DNA of 43,175 nucleotides from Thermoplasmata archaeon (lineage in GTDB: Archaea > Thermoplasmatota > Thermoplasmata > Thermoplasmatales > Thermoplasmataceae): positions 1 to 43,175 of the forward strand of contig JAJZLK010000052.1 of the NCBI GenBank assembly GCA_021803655.1. Reading direction: 5' to 3'. The position numbers and the translations under genes were made by a program. The notes under the pieces were generated by a model, which did not search any database, was not told where the DNA came from, and saw nothing but the letters and a program-made list of their open reading frames with translations. Positions 31,971 through 43,175 of the stretch are shown piece by piece (the first letter of the stretch is position 1; the number at the start of each line of letters is the position of its first letter).

Positions 31971-31992
31971 TCGGTCATTACTTGTTTAATTG

Positions 31993-34587
31993 ATGAGATT
32001 CCCGCTGATCATCGCGATAGCTTTGGTTCTCCCATTAATCTCCCTGGGCGCGCCACATGATCAGGTTTCGATAGCGGGAACTGCCGCTCTGCTTCAGCAA
32101 CCTCCAGTCGCATCCCAGTATCTTTCCTCCAATGTTTCTTCTGTTTCAGCAGGATCATGGAACACGTCCAGTGTTACTCTGGCATATCCATCTAACAACA
32201 GTACATCAATATCTATTGCCACTGTTTCCAAACCGGGATATTACATCTTCAACCCAGGAACAGAGACTACGGGCAACTCGTCAATTCTGCCGGCTGCTTC
32301 GCCTCCTCCCAAGGGCTGGATAACCCCGGAACCGTTAAATGGAACGATCATGAACGGAACGTGGAATTTCGAGATCGGAATCAACACTACGTACACGACA
32401 GCACCGTTGTGGAAGGCTTTTTTGGGCGTATCTGTAATCCAGTACAACTCTACTTCGGGAACCTACACCAACATCTTCACCAATTTCTCGTCCACCAATG
32501 TTGCGGCATTTGCCACGGGGAGCCTGACTTACGTCCATTTTACATATGTTGAATCAAAACAGATCGACCTAGGCAAGAACTCATACCTGATGATCCAGTT
32601 CATTCTCAACGTTTCAGGTGCTCTTTTAACTCCCGCTCATTTTTCTCTCTACACCGGGGATACCAGCAAAGGGTATTCATCCTTCTCATACCCGTATTAC
32701 GGGTGGATATCCGGAAATGTGTCTCCAGGCAACACAAGCATTTCAATCAACGGAACAACGGAGAATCACGCGGGAAATTCCTTCAACCTGGCACTTTCCC
32801 CGGGAAGCTATCAGTTCAGAGCCGAACTGGCAGGATATAGAAATTTCTCGACTGAAGTCGTTGTGGTTTCCGATCATGTTTCTCTCCTCAATGTCACTCT
32901 CAAGAAGCTGTATACTCTCAATGTGAGTGAAACCGGCATTCCTGCGGGAATCCCCTGGAACGTTACAGTTTCCGGTAAGAATTATACCAGCAAGAACACG
33001 ACATTCTCACTGAACCTTACCAACGGATCCTACAACTATTCTTTCCAGAATACGGTTATGTCCGGTAAGTTAACAAGATATGTGAACTCCAGTTCAAATG
33101 GGACAGTCAACATCTCAGGATCATCTAAGGCGATTATGGCTTCCTATCAGGAGGAGTATTTCCTTAACCTCTCTGTTTCACCGGTTTCCTACGGCAGGGC
33201 AACTCCGTCTTCGGGATGGTATAACTCATCATCCGTGGTGAATATTTCTGCAACTCCATATACCGGGCATACGTTTGTCTTCTGGGCCGGGAGCGGAAAC
33301 GGAAGTTACAGCGGAACAAATGCCTCAACCTCTGTGACGATGAGATCGCCGTTGAATGAGACGGCATTTTTCACGAAAACCGGAGTAAAGACATACGGAG
33401 TGTACTTCACTGAATCCGGGTTACCCCCGGGAACTATCTGGGAAGCATCGCTCAACGGCACAACAGAATCCGGCAACTCCACGTTAATCGAGTTCCATGA
33501 GGTCAATGGAAGCTATTCCTACAGTGTGGCTTACGTCGCAGGATATTCGGTAAGGAATGATTCCGGCAATATCTCCATAGCTGGCAGCAATCAGTCCATA
33601 GGCGTTCAGTTCTACCGACTAACTTTTTCTGTAACCTTTCTGTCAACAGGCTTGAATCTTGCTTCCGGGCAGACATGGTCCGTTATGGTGAACTCTTTAT
33701 CGAACCAGTCCTCGAATAACATAACAGGGTTCAAGCTCGAGAACGGCAGCTACAACTATACCGTAGAAAACGTGACAGGGTTCAGCATTATGCCACAGTC
33801 CGGTTCCTTCACTGTCAGTGGTTCAAATATCTCCTTCGCCATAACTTTCACTGAGCTGTCCTATCATGTAATATTCATTGAGAAAGGGCTTCCAAATGGT
33901 ACCCTGTGGGAGGTCAATCTCTCTGGGGTAATCAAGCAGTCGCGTAATGATGCCATCACCTTCAACATGCACGACGCGAGTTATGTTTATGCTGCATTCG
34001 CCGCCAACTACTCCGCCACGAACCAGAACGGTACGGTGACAGTATTTGGAAGTCAGATATCCATCAGCCTGAATTTTAGCCACTCATCTGCTTCGCCTTC
34101 TTCGTCTGCTAGGTTCCCGGGTAACCTTCTGCTTATTCTTTCAATTGCCGCTGCTTCTGCCGCTGCTGCTCTCCTTGCAACCTATATCTACATCAGAAGA
34201 GTATACGGGCATACCGACGATGTCTACATAGTGCACAACGACGGCAGGCTGCTGAAGCACTTTTCAACGCGCATGAATCCGGAAATAGATCAGGAGTTGT
34301 TCACAGCCACGATACTTGCAATCAAAGGTGCACTTGGGGAGGTTACAAATGCAGGGGATCTCAAGGAGATCGTCATAGGAAAACGCCGACTGGAGATTTT
34401 CACTGGCAAGACTGCCTCACTGGTTCTTGAACGCAACGGGAAACTGTCCAGATCACTGGACAGGAAAGCTAGGACACTTGTGGCTGACATAAACACCACC
34501 TTTGAAGGAAAGCTCGAGAATTGGGGCGGAGACTTTTCAGAACTTGGAAAACTTGACCTGTTCAGTAACAGGATCAGGTCCCTATGA
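31993..34587 (+). CDS. Transmembrane surface protein with extracellular repeats and roadblock-like cytoplasmic domain
   Basis: An 864-residue protein with a signal peptide (1-20). The large outer part is rich in Asn-x-Ser/Thr sites. It starts with a ~200-residue unrecognised domain, then a PEGA-like unit (LALSPGSYQFRAELAGYRNF). Four modules follow of the type 'F.E.GLP.GT.WEV.L.G ... NGSYNYTV', with an InlB-like repeat in between (GWYNSSSVVNISATPYTGHT). A TM helix lies at about 710-736. The ~128-residue inner tail has a DDVYIVHNDGRLLKHFS hairpin, a helix, LKEIVIGKRRLEIFTGK strands and a final helix. This order matches roadblock/LC7-like domains known to bind small GTPases, and a Ras-like GTPase gene lies just upstream. 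The fold call is inference. Confidence 0.75.
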   Translation: MRFPLIIAIALVLPLISLGAPHDQVSIAGTAALLQQPPVASQYLSSNVSSVSAGSWNTSSVTLAYPSNNSTSISIATVSKPGYYIFNPGTETTGNSSILPAASPPPKGWITPEPLNGTIMNGTWNFEIGINTTYTTAPLWKAFLGVSVIQYNSTSGTYTNIFTNFSSTNVAAFATGSLTYVHFTYVESKQIDLGKNSYLMIQFILNVSGALLTPAHFSLYTGDTSKGYSSFSYPYYGWISGNVSPGNTSISINGTTENHAGNSFNLALSPGSYQFRAELAGYRNFSTEVVVVSDHVSLLNVTLKKLYTLNVSETGIPAGIPWNVTVSGKNYTSKNTTFSLNLTNGSYNYSFQNTVMSGKLTRYVNSSSNGTVNISGSSKAIMASYQEEYFLNLSVSPVSYGRATPSSGWYNSSSVVNISATPYTGHTFVFWAGSGNGSYSGTNASTSVTMRSPLNETAFFTKTGVKTYGVYFTESGLPPGTIWEASLNGTTESGNSTLIEFHEVNGSYSYSVAYVAGYSVRNDSGNISIAGSNQSIGVQFYRLTFSVTFLSTGLNLASGQTWSVMVNSLSNQSSNNITGFKLENGSYNYTVENVTGFSIMPQSGSFTVSGSNISFAITFTELSYHVIFIEKGLPNGTLWEVNLSGVIKQSRNDAITFNMHDASYVYAAFAANYSATNQNGTVTVFGSQISISLNFSHSSASPSSSARFPGNLLLILSIAAASAAAALLATYIYIRRVYGHTDDVYIVHNDGRLLKHFSTRMNPEIDQELFTATILAIKGALGEVTNAGDLKEIVIGKRRLEIFTGKTASLVLERNGKLSRSLDRKARTLVADINTTFEGKLENWGGDFSELGKLDLFSNRIRSL

Positions 34588-34785: not shown

Positions 34786-37700
34786 ATGGCAACCTTAGAT
34801 GGAAGTCACACTAAGAGAAGAGTAGTTGCGGTAACGGCCCTTTTTTTTGCGGTGCTAATGGTTATGTCACCGCTCGGATACCTCAATTTTTCCAGCGGAA
34901 ACGGGACCGCGTCTGCGACCTCGGCAAGTCCCGGCATCATACCAATGTCAGGGACATACAGTGGCGGAATGGTGAGTGTAAGCAACACCACGTCTTACAT
35001 TCCCGGTGGTTCATCGCTTCTTTCCGGAATAAATCTCAGCATGCAGACAACGGTATTTCTTGGATTTCACGCAGTGAACAGGAGCAAGCTGAACTCGTAC
35101 CTGAATGAAACGTCTTCGCCCTCCTCGTCGCTGTACAGGCATTATATGACACACAGTACGTTTGAACGGTATTTTGAACCGTCTGCTTCAAGTGTTGACA
35201 CAGTGGCTTCATATTACAGGCAGATGGGACTCACCATAACTCCCCAGAATGACAGGTTATATCTGCAGATCAGCGGTTCGCTGCTCCAGATTGAGAAAGC
35301 GTTCAACACCTCATTCTCAATGTATAATACTTCACTTGGGACTTATTACTTCAACACACAGGATGTCCAGGTTCCAACCGCCTTCTCCGGAATGATAAGC
35401 GGAGTTATAGGATTCTCCAATTACCCGTACTTCACACCGGCTCTTACTGTGAATCCGGCTCTTGGAATGAATGTCACCCAGGCAATAGGCGTAATAAACA
35501 GTGGTGCAGGGGGTGCTACAAACCAACCCCCATACAGTCCTGGCGCGTTGCAGCTTGCCTATAACGAAACAGGCCTTCTTTCGAAAGGATATACAGGAGC
35601 GTATGAAACCGTCGTGGTCATCGATGCATATGGAGACCCGACGGCACAGGTGGACATGGCAACCTATGACGGACTCTACAACATGCCGGCACCCCCCTCG
35701 TTCCAGACAATATATCCTTATGGGACTGCATCGGCTTATACCGATGCAGGATCAGTGACAAGTCTCTGGGAGGTTGAATCAGCACTTGACTTCCAGATGG
35801 CACATGCTACTGCCCCTGGAGCCAATATTGTTGCTGCTGTATCCCCGGACGCAGGTTACACACTTCTGCAAACGCTCGCCTACGTCATAACCAACCAGCT
35901 GGGCAACGTGGTATCAAACAGCTGGGGAGAACCAGAGCAGGAAGCGGGTACCGCCGTCGCATACATGAATCCGTTCTTCCAGATGGCTGCAGCAGAGGGA
36001 ATAACTGTCCTGGCGGCTTCTGGCGATCAGGGTGCTGCAGGATATGATCCATCCGTTCCAAGATCAGTCATGTGGCCTTGCACCGATCCTTACGTGACCG
36101 CAGTGGGAGGAACAACCCTATTCATGAATGGAACGGTTGCAACCGGAGTGGGAAACCCGCTGAATGGACCTCCAACTGTTCCTGAGGTAGTGAACCCCAC
36201 GGGATGGCAGAATGAGACCGCATGGGATGGATACACCGGAGGAGGATACAGCGTTCTTTATGCAAGACCTTTCTGGCAGACTGGGCCTGGTCTTCCCACG
36301 TCAGGACCGGATTCCAACATGCGCGGTTCTCCTGACGTTGCCGCGAACGCGATGTTTGGCGGCAATGACTTCGTCTTCAACGGCCAGCCCGGAGGCTCAC
36401 AGTTGTTTGGCGGTACGAGTTTCGCATCACCCATATGGGCAGGAGTCATTGCAACAATGGACTCCTACACAACAGCAATACAGGGAGACCAGCTGGGATT
36501 CCTGAATCCGACATTCTATGAGATCCTCAATTCAAAGGCCTACAGCAAGGATTTCCATGATATACTTTACGGATACAATGGTCCCAATGGTTTCTACAAT
36601 GCTGGACCTGGATGGAGTCCGGTCACCGGAATGGGATCACCGAACATAGGAAATCTTGCAACAGAACTTGTGGATTACACATTTTCTACGGGAGTCAAGG
36701 GAGACTTCAGGACTACTTACAACCACGGAGTTTCCGCAAACATTCAGACAGTGGTTCCACAAAGGACCATGGGAACGTCGGTGAACCAGTACTATGTTGA
36801 AGACACCCTTGCAAGTGGCACTATGTTGATGGCAGGATACGCGATAGACCAGACATACAAGAGCGGGACATGGTTCTTTGAGATCATACCCTCAACGTCC
36901 GCATTCGGCACCTACAACGTGAAGTATGGCGGTGATGGAAGCGCGGGTTCTAATGGAACCTTCAACAACTACGCAATCATGGAAACATCCCCGGGAGTCT
37001 GGTCGATACTCATAAACTCAAGAACTGTGGTAACAGTTTCTGATGTGTCTACCAGCAGTGGAAGACATGTTCCATACTTCGCAGGCTCAACCTCGCAGAC
37101 GACCTCAAGCTTTAACATCCTGGGGCCGTCAGTGATCAGCGGAATGGACTACTATAACGGATCTGCTTTTCTTCCGATTCCTTCCGCAATGACTTTTGAA
37201 GGGACCACAATTTCAAGTTCGTATGATCCGAGTATTGCCTTCAACAATCCGTACGGCGTATCGATCTACACAGGTACTGACTTCTCGGTGCAGCACTCCA
37301 TAATTGTGGGATCCGGGGTTCCACTGAGCAACGGACAGATACTGTGGGGAAGCTACCAGAATATCCCGCCAAAAACTGTCCTGCTTAAGAACCCTGAATA
37401 CGTGACTCTATACGCACAGCACGTCGATTCAGTAGCGACTGCAGGAGGTTCGTCATTCCAGTTGACTACGCAGTTCCCGACAGGCCAGAAAGACTTCAAC
37501 AACTTCTATCTTGTTCCTGTTCTTGGAACGTCTACATGGAGCTTTGTAACATCAGAATCTACCTCATCCTCACTGACACTTGCAGGGAACCAGCCCATAT
37601 TTGCGCACTTCTATGTTGAGGCGTCGACACTCAATTCGTCCTCCATACAGGTTGGTCCACCTCTGACTGTAACAGTATCACTTACCGCCGGAGGTACATT

Positions 37701-39723
37701 GATCGGAACTGGATCCGTGACACAGAGCATTCCTGCGTCCGGAGGAATTGTTGAATACAACGTTTCCTTCCTCCCGGTTGTTTCCAGCATACCCGCAAAT
37801 GCATACATCAGCATGTCCATATCATGGTATATTGCGTCTGCAGCGGGAGAGCAGGTGAGTTATGCTGTAGCACCCCAGACAGGACAGCAGTACCCGATTC
37901 TTCTGTCCTTGCCGACCTACAACCCCGTGGACGTGTCTCCGCTGATCCTTTCTTCAGGTACAGCGGGATTATACGCAGAGTCACACGTGAGCAGTCCGTT
38001 CGGAAAATACGATCTGGCTTCGATCAACGCGACGGTTAACGGCGTGCAACTCTCCAGTGCAGAGGTAAATGGAAATGTTTACACATGGTTCATTCCCCAG
38101 ATGCAGTTGCAGACGGGAACCAACGTCATGAGCGTAACAGCCAGTGATCTCCAGGGATTGTTCAATACTGCTTCAGCCACTTACAGCGTGCAGTCTACAA
38201 AGTATTCACTGACTTTCCAGGAGACAGGCCTGCCATCTGGCACCACGTGGGGAGTCGATCTGAGCGGAAACGAAGTTACAACTCATGGTTCCTCTCTCAC
38301 CGTGTACCTCCCCGGAGGAAGATATGCCTACTCTACCACAGGCGTTCAGGGATACCGGGCGAATCCTTCATCTGACACAGTTTCACTGACTTCATCGACA
38401 GTCGTCCCGATCCAGTTCAGTCCCAGGACATACTCTGTCTCCTTTGGAGAAAGTGGACTGCCGGCGGGTTCCCAATGGAATGTGACCATTGGTTCAATGC
38501 GTGAGAGTTCCACAACAGGAACAGTCACCTTCCAACTGGTGAATGGAACGTATACATACACAGTAGGAAGGTTCAACGGATTCAGTGCGTCTACCTATTC
38601 GGGAACGTTTACTGTGTCCGGAAAGGCACTTGTTGAACCAGACATCTCGTGGACCAGGGTCCTGTACTACGCCAACTTCACTGCCAGTGGACTCCCGTCC
38701 GGAACCTCGTGGACTGTTTCTCTCGCAGGGGTTACAACTTCCTCGTCCGAGAGCCTTATCAGCTTTGCTGTTGGAAACGGAACCTATGCTTACAAAGTGA
38801 TGGGAATAGCAGGATATAGTGCTTCTTCTTATTCAGGTACCGTGCACGTGGCTGGAAGCTCTGCGGATACTGCCATTGCATGGTCCCAGGTGGATTACAT
38901 CGTAACCTTCTCTGAGAATGGTCTTCCTTCGTCTGCACAATGGGGAGTGACAGTCAACGGGATATCCACATCAGGAGATTCCCAATCTATCATATCAACA
39001 CTTCCTAATGGGACTTACCAGTATACTGTCCAGTCCGTGGGCGGATACACCGTTTCGCCATCATCCGGATCCGTGACGGTGAATGGACACGATGTGAGCA
39101 TCAGTGTGACGTACAGCAGTTCTCCCAGATTCATGGTCACATTCAGCGAACAGGGACTTCCGTCGGGAACAACATGGAGCGTTGCATTTAACGGCATCAC
39201 AGAGAAGACCAACGGGAACCAGATCTCTTTTGAAACCGCAAGTGGCAGCTACCAGTACACCGTTTCATCAGTGCCGGGCTATGCTGCCAGCAGTCACTCG
39301 GGAACAATAACTGTCAGCGGAGCTAACACGGCAGTCACAATCGTCTGGAAACCAGTTACTTATGCAGTTACCTTCAATGAAACGGGACTTCCTCCTGAAA
39401 CTTCATGGTCCGTATCACTGGGGGGAACTTCACTGTCGTCGACAAATTCTTCCATCACATTCCAGGTTGTTAATGGAACCTACAGTTACAGCGTATCTTC
39501 CTCCGGTCTCTTCCAGGCGCAGAATTCCCGCGGAAACGTCAACGTTAACGGCTCCGGAGTCACCATTTCCGTAATATTCACGCCCACAAGTGCGGCTGGA
39601 TCGCAGGCAGTTCCGCTCACAGTGGTGGGTCTTGCCGGAACTGGGGGGAGTGGAGGAATAACAGCAGTGGTCGCTGCAAGAAAACATTTAATGAGGCTGC
39701 TGCACAAGATACTGCACCGGTGA
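34786..39723 (+). CDS. Giant S53 (sedolisin) peptidase with pro-domain and six C-terminal repeats
   Basis: A 1645-residue secreted peptidase. A basic start and hydrophobic segment (about 11-35) act as signal. Residues ~85-215 are a prokumamolisin activation domain (FLGFHAVNRSKLNSYLNE, HYMTHSTFERYFEP). The catalytic domain spans about 250-630, with Glu331 and Asp335 (EVESALDF), Asp414 (ASGDQG) and nucleophile Ser545 (GGTSFASP). A Ca-site-like VTGMGSPNIGNL closes it. Residues ~640-1135 are beta-rich and unrecognised. Six tandem ~80-residue modules fill 1139-1600. A weak hydrophobic stretch and basic tail (ARKHLMRLLHKILHR) end it. It cuts proteins in acid after self-removal of the pro-domain. 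It follows the receptor-like gene and has its own promoter and terminator. Confidence 0.94.
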   Translation: MATLDGSHTKRRVVAVTALFFAVLMVMSPLGYLNFSSGNGTASATSASPGIIPMSGTYSGGMVSVSNTTSYIPGGSSLLSGINLSMQTTVFLGFHAVNRSKLNSYLNETSSPSSSLYRHYMTHSTFERYFEPSASSVDTVASYYRQMGLTITPQNDRLYLQISGSLLQIEKAFNTSFSMYNTSLGTYYFNTQDVQVPTAFSGMISGVIGFSNYPYFTPALTVNPALGMNVTQAIGVINSGAGGATNQPPYSPGALQLAYNETGLLSKGYTGAYETVVVIDAYGDPTAQVDMATYDGLYNMPAPPSFQTIYPYGTASAYTDAGSVTSLWEVESALDFQMAHATAPGANIVAAVSPDAGYTLLQTLAYVITNQLGNVVSNSWGEPEQEAGTAVAYMNPFFQMAAAEGITVLAASGDQGAAGYDPSVPRSVMWPCTDPYVTAVGGTTLFMNGTVATGVGNPLNGPPTVPEVVNPTGWQNETAWDGYTGGGYSVLYARPFWQTGPGLPTSGPDSNMRGSPDVAANAMFGGNDFVFNGQPGGSQLFGGTSFASPIWAGVIATMDSYTTAIQGDQLGFLNPTFYEILNSKAYSKDFHDILYGYNGPNGFYNAGPGWSPVTGMGSPNIGNLATELVDYTFSTGVKGDFRTTYNHGVSANIQTVVPQRTMGTSVNQYYVEDTLASGTMLMAGYAIDQTYKSGTWFFEIIPSTSAFGTYNVKYGGDGSAGSNGTFNNYAIMETSPGVWSILINSRTVVTVSDVSTSSGRHVPYFAGSTSQTTSSFNILGPSVISGMDYYNGSAFLPIPSAMTFEGTTISSSYDPSIAFNNPYGVSIYTGTDFSVQHSIIVGSGVPLSNGQILWGSYQNIPPKTVLLKNPEYVTLYAQHVDSVATAGGSSFQLTTQFPTGQKDFNNFYLVPVLGTSTWSFVTSESTSSSLTLAGNQPIFAHFYVEASTLNSSSIQVGPPLTVTVSLTAGGTLIGTGSVTQSIPASGGIVEYNVSFLPVVSSIPANAYISMSISWYIASAAGEQVSYAVAPQTGQQYPILLSLPTYNPVDVSPLILSSGTAGLYAESHVSSPFGKYDLASINATVNGVQLSSAEVNGNVYTWFIPQMQLQTGTNVMSVTASDLQGLFNTASATYSVQSTKYSLTFQETGLPSGTTWGVDLSGNEVTTHGSSLTVYLPGGRYAYSTTGVQGYRANPSSDTVSLTSSTVVPIQFSPRTYSVSFGESGLPAGSQWNVTIGSMRESSTTGTVTFQLVNGTYTYTVGRFNGFSASTYSGTFTVSGKALVEPDISWTRVLYYANFTASGLPSGTSWTVSLAGVTTSSSESLISFAVGNGTYAYKVMGIAGYSASSYSGTVHVAGSSADTAIAWSQVDYIVTFSENGLPSSAQWGVTVNGISTSGDSQSIISTLPNGTYQYTVQSVGGYTVSPSSGSVTVNGHDVSISVTYSSSPRFMVTFSEQGLPSGTTWSVAFNGITEKTNGNQISFETASGSYQYTVSSVPGYAASSHSGTITVSGANTAVTIVWKPVTYAVTFNETGLPPETSWSVSLGGTSLSSTNSSITFQVVNGTYSYSVSSSGLFQAQNSRGNVNVNGSGVTISVIFTPTSAAGSQAVPLTVVGLAGTGGSGGITAVVAARKHLMRLLHKILHR
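38200..39588 (+). repeat. Six tandem 'GLPxGTxW' surface modules
   Basis: Six in-frame units of about 77-80 residues. Each opens with a variant of YSVTFxExGLPxGTxWxV, has NGTYxYxV near the middle and closes with SGxxxVxGxxxxxxIxW/F. Unit openings: TFQETGLPSGTTWGV, SFGESGLPAGSQWNV, NFTASGLPSGTSWTV, TFSENGLPSSAQWGV, TFSEQGLPSGTTWSV, TFNETGLPPETSWSV. The codons differ between units, so the duplication is old. The same module occurs in two other proteins here. Confidence 0.9.
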
Positions 39724-42270: not shown

Positions 42271-42298
42271 TAAAAAAGAGAGGGGAATTTCATTCCCC
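42271..42298 (-). terminator. Hairpin plus U-tract after the LysM/SH3b gene
   Basis: On the minus strand GGGGAAT-GAA-ATTCCCC (42298-42282) forms a 7-bp stem that includes the stop codon. It is followed by TCTCTTTTTT. This is an unusually clear intrinsic-type terminator for an archaeal gene. Confidence 0.7.
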
Positions 42299-43175
42299 AA
42301 GATACAGCACATAGAGATATTCTCCCACATATATCGATGTGGATCCCAGGCCGTTGGCATCCTCTATCATGTAGTACAGGTTTCCATTACCGTACGCCGT
42401 GTTTGCCATTCCCCACAGTGTGTCACCACTCTGCACATAGTAATAATAGCCCTGCGCCGGGGACGATGTGTACCATGTCGTCGGGACCGGACTCAGATAA
42501 TTCATGGCCACCCATCCAACAACATTGTTGGTGAAGGCTACAGCTATCCACACATACCCTCCACTGTCCACAAGCCCACCATATTCGACATAGCCGGTCT
42601 GTCCACTGTCAACAAGGTTTATGTTTGAATACGACAGCCCGGGTCCGGAGTGTACATACAGTGCCGATGCAGTGACCTGGACTTCCGCTGAGGGCCAGAA
42701 GTTCTCTGTGGAAGAATAGTAACCTGATGCACCGTTGTCGGAAAGATACTCATCGGCCACCCAGCCAACAGTACTGCCAAATGTGACGGTTATCCACTGA
42801 TATCCGTTGTTTGAGATCTTTCCGCCATAGCCAACTATTCCAGTGGCTCCGCTGCTTTCTGTTGTAAGTATTGCATAACCGGTTCCTGGCCCTTCTCTCA
42901 CGTTCATGGAGGAGGACGCTACCGTTACAGAGTCGCCAGGGTTGAACTGCGGTGGTGGGGTGAATTTCACGTTAATGTTCACGTTGGCGCCGTTAACAGT
43001 AACGCTTCCAGAAGCTGGTGAAGCCACATACCCGTTGACTGTCGGGATGCTGAAGGAATATGTGCCGTCAGCAATGCCGGTGAATGTCCACGAGCTTGAG
43101 GAGGATTGATACGTGTAGGGTGAGCCGGTCTGTCCGTCAAATGTTACAGTCCATGTGGTGTTGTAGGGCAGTCCG
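42290..43175 (-). CDS. Surface protein with GLP-type module, two SH3b domains and LysM domain (5' end missing)
   Basis: The last 295 codons of a gene that enters from the right edge. In order: most of a 'GLPxxTxWxV' module (GLPYNTTWTVTFDG, SVTVNGANVNINVKF), then a bacterial-type SH3 domain (SSMNVREGPGTGYAIL, then VGWVADEYLS). A second SH3 domain follows (SALYVHSGPGLSYSNI, then VGWVAMNYLS). The C-terminus is a LysM domain (YYVQSGDTLWGMANTAYG, then MIEDANGLGSTSIYVGEYL). These domains usually bind cell-wall glycans in bacteria. No TM helix is visible in this part. The first in-frame ATG inside (43027) is internal, since coding continues upstream to the edge. Confidence 0.85.
   Translation of the reverse strand, partial: GLPYNTTWTVTFDGQTGSPYTYQSSSSSWTFTGIADGTYSFSIPTVNGYVASPASGSVTVNGANVNINVKFTPPPQFNPGDSVTVASSSMNVREGPGTGYAILTTESSGATGIVGYGGKISNNGYQWITVTFGSTVGWVADEYLSDNGASGYYSSTENFWPSAEVQVTASALYVHSGPGLSYSNINLVDSGQTGYVEYGGLVDSGGYVWIAVAFTNNVVGWVAMNYLSPVPTTWYTSSPAQGYYYYVQSGDTLWGMANTAYGNGNLYYMIEDANGLGSTSIYVGEYLYVLYLGE

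Follow-up and report, generated by a model that had tools for sequence, protein, structure and literature searches.

Peptidoglycan hydrolases of archaea are already known (2014, 2025), and Thermoplasmatota have been named in the literature among their prominent holders. They include the bactericidal GH25-SH3b lysozyme of Aciduliprofundum boonei (B5ID12), of which the GH25 domain kills Bacillaceae and Paenibacillaceae and the full-length protein kills Escherichia coli when expressed (PMC4241558). According to the main text of the 2025 study (PMC12352652), modular archaeal peptidoglycan hydrolases, defined by one catalytic and one wall-binding Pfam domain, kill bacteria, and a third of the set carries an export signal. 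Here we describe a Thermoplasmata gene with a new architecture and an SLT family so divergent that Pfam barely detects it. Neither was found in the main texts searched, and the passages of the main text of PMC12352652 consulted make no mention of an SLT-GLP-SH3b-SH3b-LysM arrangement.

The window analyzed here (43,175 nucleotides) is the entire contig C15 of a Thermoplasmata metagenome-assembled genome (MAG), G000 (1.65 Mb; 80 contigs; 91% complete). The reverse-strand frame at positions 42290 to 43174 is open at the contig end (43175) and provides the C-terminal 294 codons and TGA stop of a gene (42290 to 43175). On the same strand, it contains a GLP-type Ig-like module (42956 to 43174), a first SH3b domain (Pfam SH3_3; 42740 to 42913), a second SH3_3 stretch delimited approximately from the Pfam stretch and an alignment (42491 to 42676), and a LysM domain (42311 to 42442); the first SH3b domain and LysM were located by a Pfam scan and genome search. 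The LysM and two SH3b domains proposed in the sequence-only reading were recovered above the Pfam curated cut-offs (SH3_3 [PF08239], E = 5.6e-7, 30.1 bits, cut-off 27, two stretches; LysM [PF01476], E = 9.4e-5, 22.7 bits, cut-off 20.9). The search of related genomes that it had called for recovered both families in two intact orthologues (LysM, E = 4.5e-7 and 3.2e-5; SH3_3, two stretches in each).

The GLP module comprises the first 73 residues of the frame, with approximately 10 initial residues lying beyond the contig end. As that reading had supposed, it is a local module type: it is 29 to 49% identical to GLP modules at many other loci of G000, and it matches modules in two other genomes (G076 and G236) and in an S53 protein of the window. 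The latter (34786 to 39723, forward strand; 1,645 aa) contains several GLP modules in addition to a pro-kumamolisin activation domain (E = 2.4e-27), and a second, related GLP protein is located at 31990 to 34587.

The full gene was recovered from a contig overlap and from intact orthologues of 573 to 575 aa. The missing N-terminal part was located on another contig of the assembly, at the end of C54: the final 653 bp of C15 (42523 to 43175) align end to end with the initial 653 bp of C54 (C54:1-653), linking the tail to the catalytic N terminus, and the gene continues on the reverse strand of C54 (C54:2-1531). A protein search of G000 showed C54:2-652 (reverse strand) to be 95% identical to residues 1 to 217 of the window protein. 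The overlap contains 40 codon-counted differences (28 synonymous and 12 nonsynonymous; dN/dS, 0.13), which look like strain variation that broke the assembly. As each half was found once in G000, the presence of two paralogous copies is the less likely reading. The intact orthologues are those of JAKAAY010000020.1 (Thermoplasmata archaeon WH2.bin120; 575 aa, 85% identical) and JAMDBT010000051.1 (Candidatus Thermoplasmatota FK_Sedi_B_Bin.205, congeneric with the window genome; 573 aa, 74% identical). In a fourth genome, G032, the contig ends after the N-terminal 336 aa of the protein. A large gene (L061:1628-3433, reverse strand) is located directly upstream of the C54 gene, on the same strand and about 100 bp away; the part of it that was scanned had no Pfam match.

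The protein of about 575 aa consists of a signal peptide-like start, a conserved WVYYSGL...NDP segment, an SLT-like module, GLP, two SH3b domains, and LysM. All four members have a putative signal peptide, read from the sequence as a positively charged start followed by a hydrophobic core; the protein has no second hydrophobic span or membrane anchor beyond it, including at the C terminus. The calculated pI is 4.05, and Lys and Arg are scarce. The sequence-only reading, which had access to only the last half of the protein, took it for a surface glycan binder. The tail bears out part of that proposal, which was nevertheless incomplete: with the whole gene in hand, a signal peptide and an SLT/lysozyme-like module join the picture, and there is no other membrane span. 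The protein is better read as a predicted enzyme that is secreted, degrades peptidoglycan, and is targeted to the wall by its tail.

The SLT module (C54:701-1165, reverse strand) lies near the limit of Pfam detection. As isolated modules, the G000, G015, and G001 sequences scored above the SLT (PF01464) cut-off of 21.3 bits (24.7, 26.1, and 22.5 bits, respectively), and those of G032 (17.8 bits) and G236 (15.7 bits) scored below it, with the match consisting of two stretches in each of the five. Full-length proteins gave borderline scores at the same cut-off (21.3, 18.9 [G001], and 21.8 bits [G015]). SLT family 1 is characterized by a catalytic Glu in an ES motif, followed by G-x-MQ and AYNxG. 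The module keeps the corresponding motifs (VESSGG, GNVMQ, and AYNAG), and the residues invariant across an alignment of seven members include E39, M50-Q51, and Y100-N101-x-G103, which are those of the SLT motifs. Two of the relatives, in G332 (also with PKD and FN3 domains) and G288, are very divergent (33 to 36% identical). The module is also 64% identical to the C-terminal module of a GLP protein in G236, which belongs to another order. Like lytic transglycosylase family 1, the module has three motifs in order (VPTDLIYAIMLVESS, GNVMQ, and AAYNAG); it differs in having GNVMQ for GLMQ followed by an insert, in an extra conserved N-terminal segment, and in scoring at the family cut-off.

In a profile-profile comparison against eleven SLT domains, of which phage records supplied eight and contigs of the searched genomes three, 106 columns were aligned, including the catalytic region, with a score of 30.9 and a stated probability of only 41%; controls scored at most 15.4 in 30 column shuffles and 8.4 for the reversed profile. 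PDB searches (phmmer/hmmsearch) returned no relative of the SLT module among solved structures. An AlphaFold2 model from only two sequences had a helix and hairpin order that fits but is unreliable at its confidence (pLDDT, 31), a failure probably due to too few sequences. Between G015 and G000, the SLT module was the most constrained part of the protein (dN/dS, 0.06; LysM, 0.08) and is under strong purifying selection. On this evidence, the assignment to SLT is a good, if provisional, one. The predicted lytic transglycosylase could equally be a muramidase.

The closest described counterpart is the A. boonei GH25 lysozyme (PMC4241558), which we compared through genome G064. The GH25 protein of G064 has 574 aa, matching the length of the 1,725-bp A. 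boonei gene (PMC4241558), and we take G064 to be A. boonei; on that basis, the order would also be the same. Both proteins join a secreted peptidoglycan-cutting domain (here, a predicted one) to a tandem SH3b pair, and the two pairs are about 30% identical over 145 aa. The A. boonei enzyme has GH25 and Amidase_6 rather than SLT, has a C-terminal hydrophobic anchor rather than LysM, and lacks a GLP module. As in Woldo and Danwoldo of Halogranum salarium, as presented in the main text of PMC12352652, a catalytic domain (here, an SLT match borderline at the cut-off) and a wall-binding domain stand on one chain with a putative export signal in an archaeal host without peptidoglycan. The set described there has at least one wall-binding Pfam domain per protein, and here both LysM and SH3_3 are above their cut-offs. 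Woldo differs in its domains (M23 and PG_binding_1), according to the same text.

The host itself appears to lack a peptidoglycan wall, as had been supposed. The PF00905 transpeptidase is required for peptidoglycan synthesis. It was not detected in G000, G001, or G015 and was absent from 40 of the 41 genomes searched. Two penicillin-binding transpeptidase matches on contigs C158 and C118 of G061, a genome of the same order, are probably contamination. The proposed archaeal origin also stood: neighboring genes are archaeal in type (e.g., a TFB-like open reading frame [ORF], identified by inspection, near the G015 copy in L063), GLP lies in the same frame, and the gene occurs in four archaeal MAGs. 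A transposase-like ORF fragment is present at the contig end near the G015 copy (L063:1-402). No shared neighbors were observed among the stretches compared from G000, G001, G015, and G032, and 4 of the 117 genomes of the order carried the gene; it therefore behaves as a single, patchily distributed gene. Patchiness is the pattern reported for archaeal peptidoglycan hydrolases in the main text of PMC12352652. A single contig scan gave only the two archaeal orthologues, and no bacterial donor of the LysM or SLT domain was traced.

Several LysM matches were set aside, namely, those in G080:C223 (L065, a phage-like lysin contig; probable contaminant), those in G081:C98 (L066, with MltD-, RlpA-, and HisB-like genes; probable contaminant), and a protein of G293 (uncertain). 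An MltD-like gene in L122 (G147:C38) is probably a bacterial or phage contaminant in an archaeal MAG. Contaminant contigs such as L066, L122, and L065 inflate automatic counts of archaeal LysM/SLT proteins.

The tail also occurs with other catalytic modules. It shares 47% identity with the tail of a G076 protein composed of an S53 (kumamolisin) domain, GLP, a GH18-like region, two SH3b domains, and LysM, where the GH18-like call is from a motif only, with no Pfam match. The order of the tail is identical in the two proteins, and the catalytic modules are different. The G076 protein thus carries the SH3b-SH3b-LysM tail on the S53-GLP layout of the 1,645-aa window protein. One 1,504-aa protein with these parts (L064:11845-16356; S53 peptidase, GLP, a GH18-like region, two SH3b domains, and LysM) combines protease and wall-binding parts on one chain. 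These architectures provide new evidence that catalytic modules and the SH3b-SH3b-LysM tail are shuffled among Thermoplasmata proteins. A structure model of the tail from three sequences had a pLDDT of 46, too low for use. In a PDB search, the nearest solved structure to the LysM domain was Kbp, a LysM protein named for potassium binding; LysM alone is therefore no proof of wall binding.

Taken together, the full architecture, the conserved SLT motifs, the purifying selection, the lack of a transpeptidase, the archaeal neighbors, and the archaeal GLP module argue that the gene most likely encodes a secreted enzyme against bacterial peptidoglycan. We consider it likely, with good but not full confidence, that the window frame encodes the C-terminal end of a modular peptidoglycan hydrolase, which a wall-less Thermoplasmata archaeon secretes and directs at bacteria. 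The earlier suggestion that the domains could bind neighboring bacteria was apparently a correct guess, to which the full gene adds a predicted wall-cutting module. The signal peptide would export the protein (presumably via Sec), with no further membrane span to retain it; the two SH3b domains and LysM would bind it to wall peptidoglycan; and GLP would be a linker of archaeal type that withstands acid. Cleavage of the MurNAc-GlcNAc glycan strands would fall to the SLT/lysozyme-like module, in which the Glu of VESSGG would be the general acid, and lysis of the bacterium would follow. The producer would be immune without any immunity gene because it makes no peptidoglycan. The gain may be the killing of competitors or the consumption of lysed bacteria, and either role (weapon or scavenging enzyme) would fit; the main text of PMC12352652 leaves the same question open. 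A pure adhesin would have no catalytic domain and would have a surface anchor; here, an SLT module is present and a C-terminal span is absent, and the protein probably serves in attack or feeding rather than in surface adhesion alone.

It is unlikely that the protein is noncatalytic or self-directed, i.e., that its SLT-like module is dead or cuts the cell's own surface glycans and its tail rests on the cell's own glycocalyx, as a surface glycan binder or remodeling enzyme. The borderline SLT match would suit such a role, as would the GLP modules often carried by large proteins of the same genome, but the residues conserved across divergent subfamilies are the catalytic-motif ones, the module is under strong purifying selection, and no membrane anchor accompanies the signal peptide. 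Presence in so few genomes of the order is also a poor fit to a core surface function. An enzyme directed at chitin or fungi, in which the lysozyme-like module cuts chitin or chitosan, is distinctly improbable: LysM can bind chitin (PMC4004799; main text of PMC12352652), but SH3b with SLT is a peptidoglycan combination, and in other SH3b enzymes of the class the accompanying domain is an amidase, NlpC/P60, GH25, or glucosaminidase.

A lysin of an archaeal virus or a phage remnant is very unlikely. The domain set is endolysin-like and the LysM part matches the endolysin family phrog_380, but the protein has a signal peptide, and a lysin would be useless to a virus of a wall-less host. Neither the protein nor the profiles of the SLT module and the tail had a relative in the phages, plasmids, and IMG/VR records searched, except for one SH3b match on a Pontibacillus plasmid. 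A bacterial gene binned with archaeal contigs, or a chimeric contig, which the sequence-only reading had named as fatal to its proposal, is close to refuted: the MAG is in 80 contigs and other searched genomes include probable contaminant LysM/SLT contigs (e.g., G081:C98), but the archaeal GLP module lies in the same frame, neighboring genes are archaeal, and the four archaeal MAGs hold the gene in different neighborhoods.

Related architectures were present elsewhere in the class. Proteins with GH25, Amidase_6, and two SH3b domains (family f5) occur in the same order, and SH3b is combined with NlpC/P60 in families f1 and f3. Two genomes of one archaeal genus encode a glucosaminidase with SH3b, Amidase_6, and SH3b repeats (family f29; L112 and L113). 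Family f15 (L114, L115, L116, and L118; genus g90; 1,100 to 1,200 aa) combines a lysozyme-like region, LysM repeats, a GH18-like region, an amidase-like region (Amidase_6), and a C-terminal hydrophobic span; its members are possible three-enzyme cutters of bacterial walls in Thermoplasmata.

Attack on bacteria has been demonstrated for very few archaeal proteins, and the candidate described here is probably acid-active, is from the Thermoplasmatales line, and has intact orthologues at hand. Domains that seem out of place in a cell without a wall become understandable when the complete gene is considered. We tentatively propose, as a possibility somewhat short of an even chance, that Thermoplasmata build bacteriolytic enzymes of their own, stable in acid, from a common kit of parts, moved as single genes between genomic sites, and that predation on or warfare against bacteria is recurrent in wall-less acidophilic archaea. 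The kit would comprise an archaeal SLT family that standard profiles mostly fail to detect, GLP linkers, S53 peptidases, GH18-like, amidase, and GH25 modules, and a portable SH3b-SH3b-LysM tail. The class-wide architectures suggest repeated assembly of such enzymes, a matter of interest for the influence of archaea on mixed communities, and offer a pool of wall-cutting enzymes with possible activity at very low pH.
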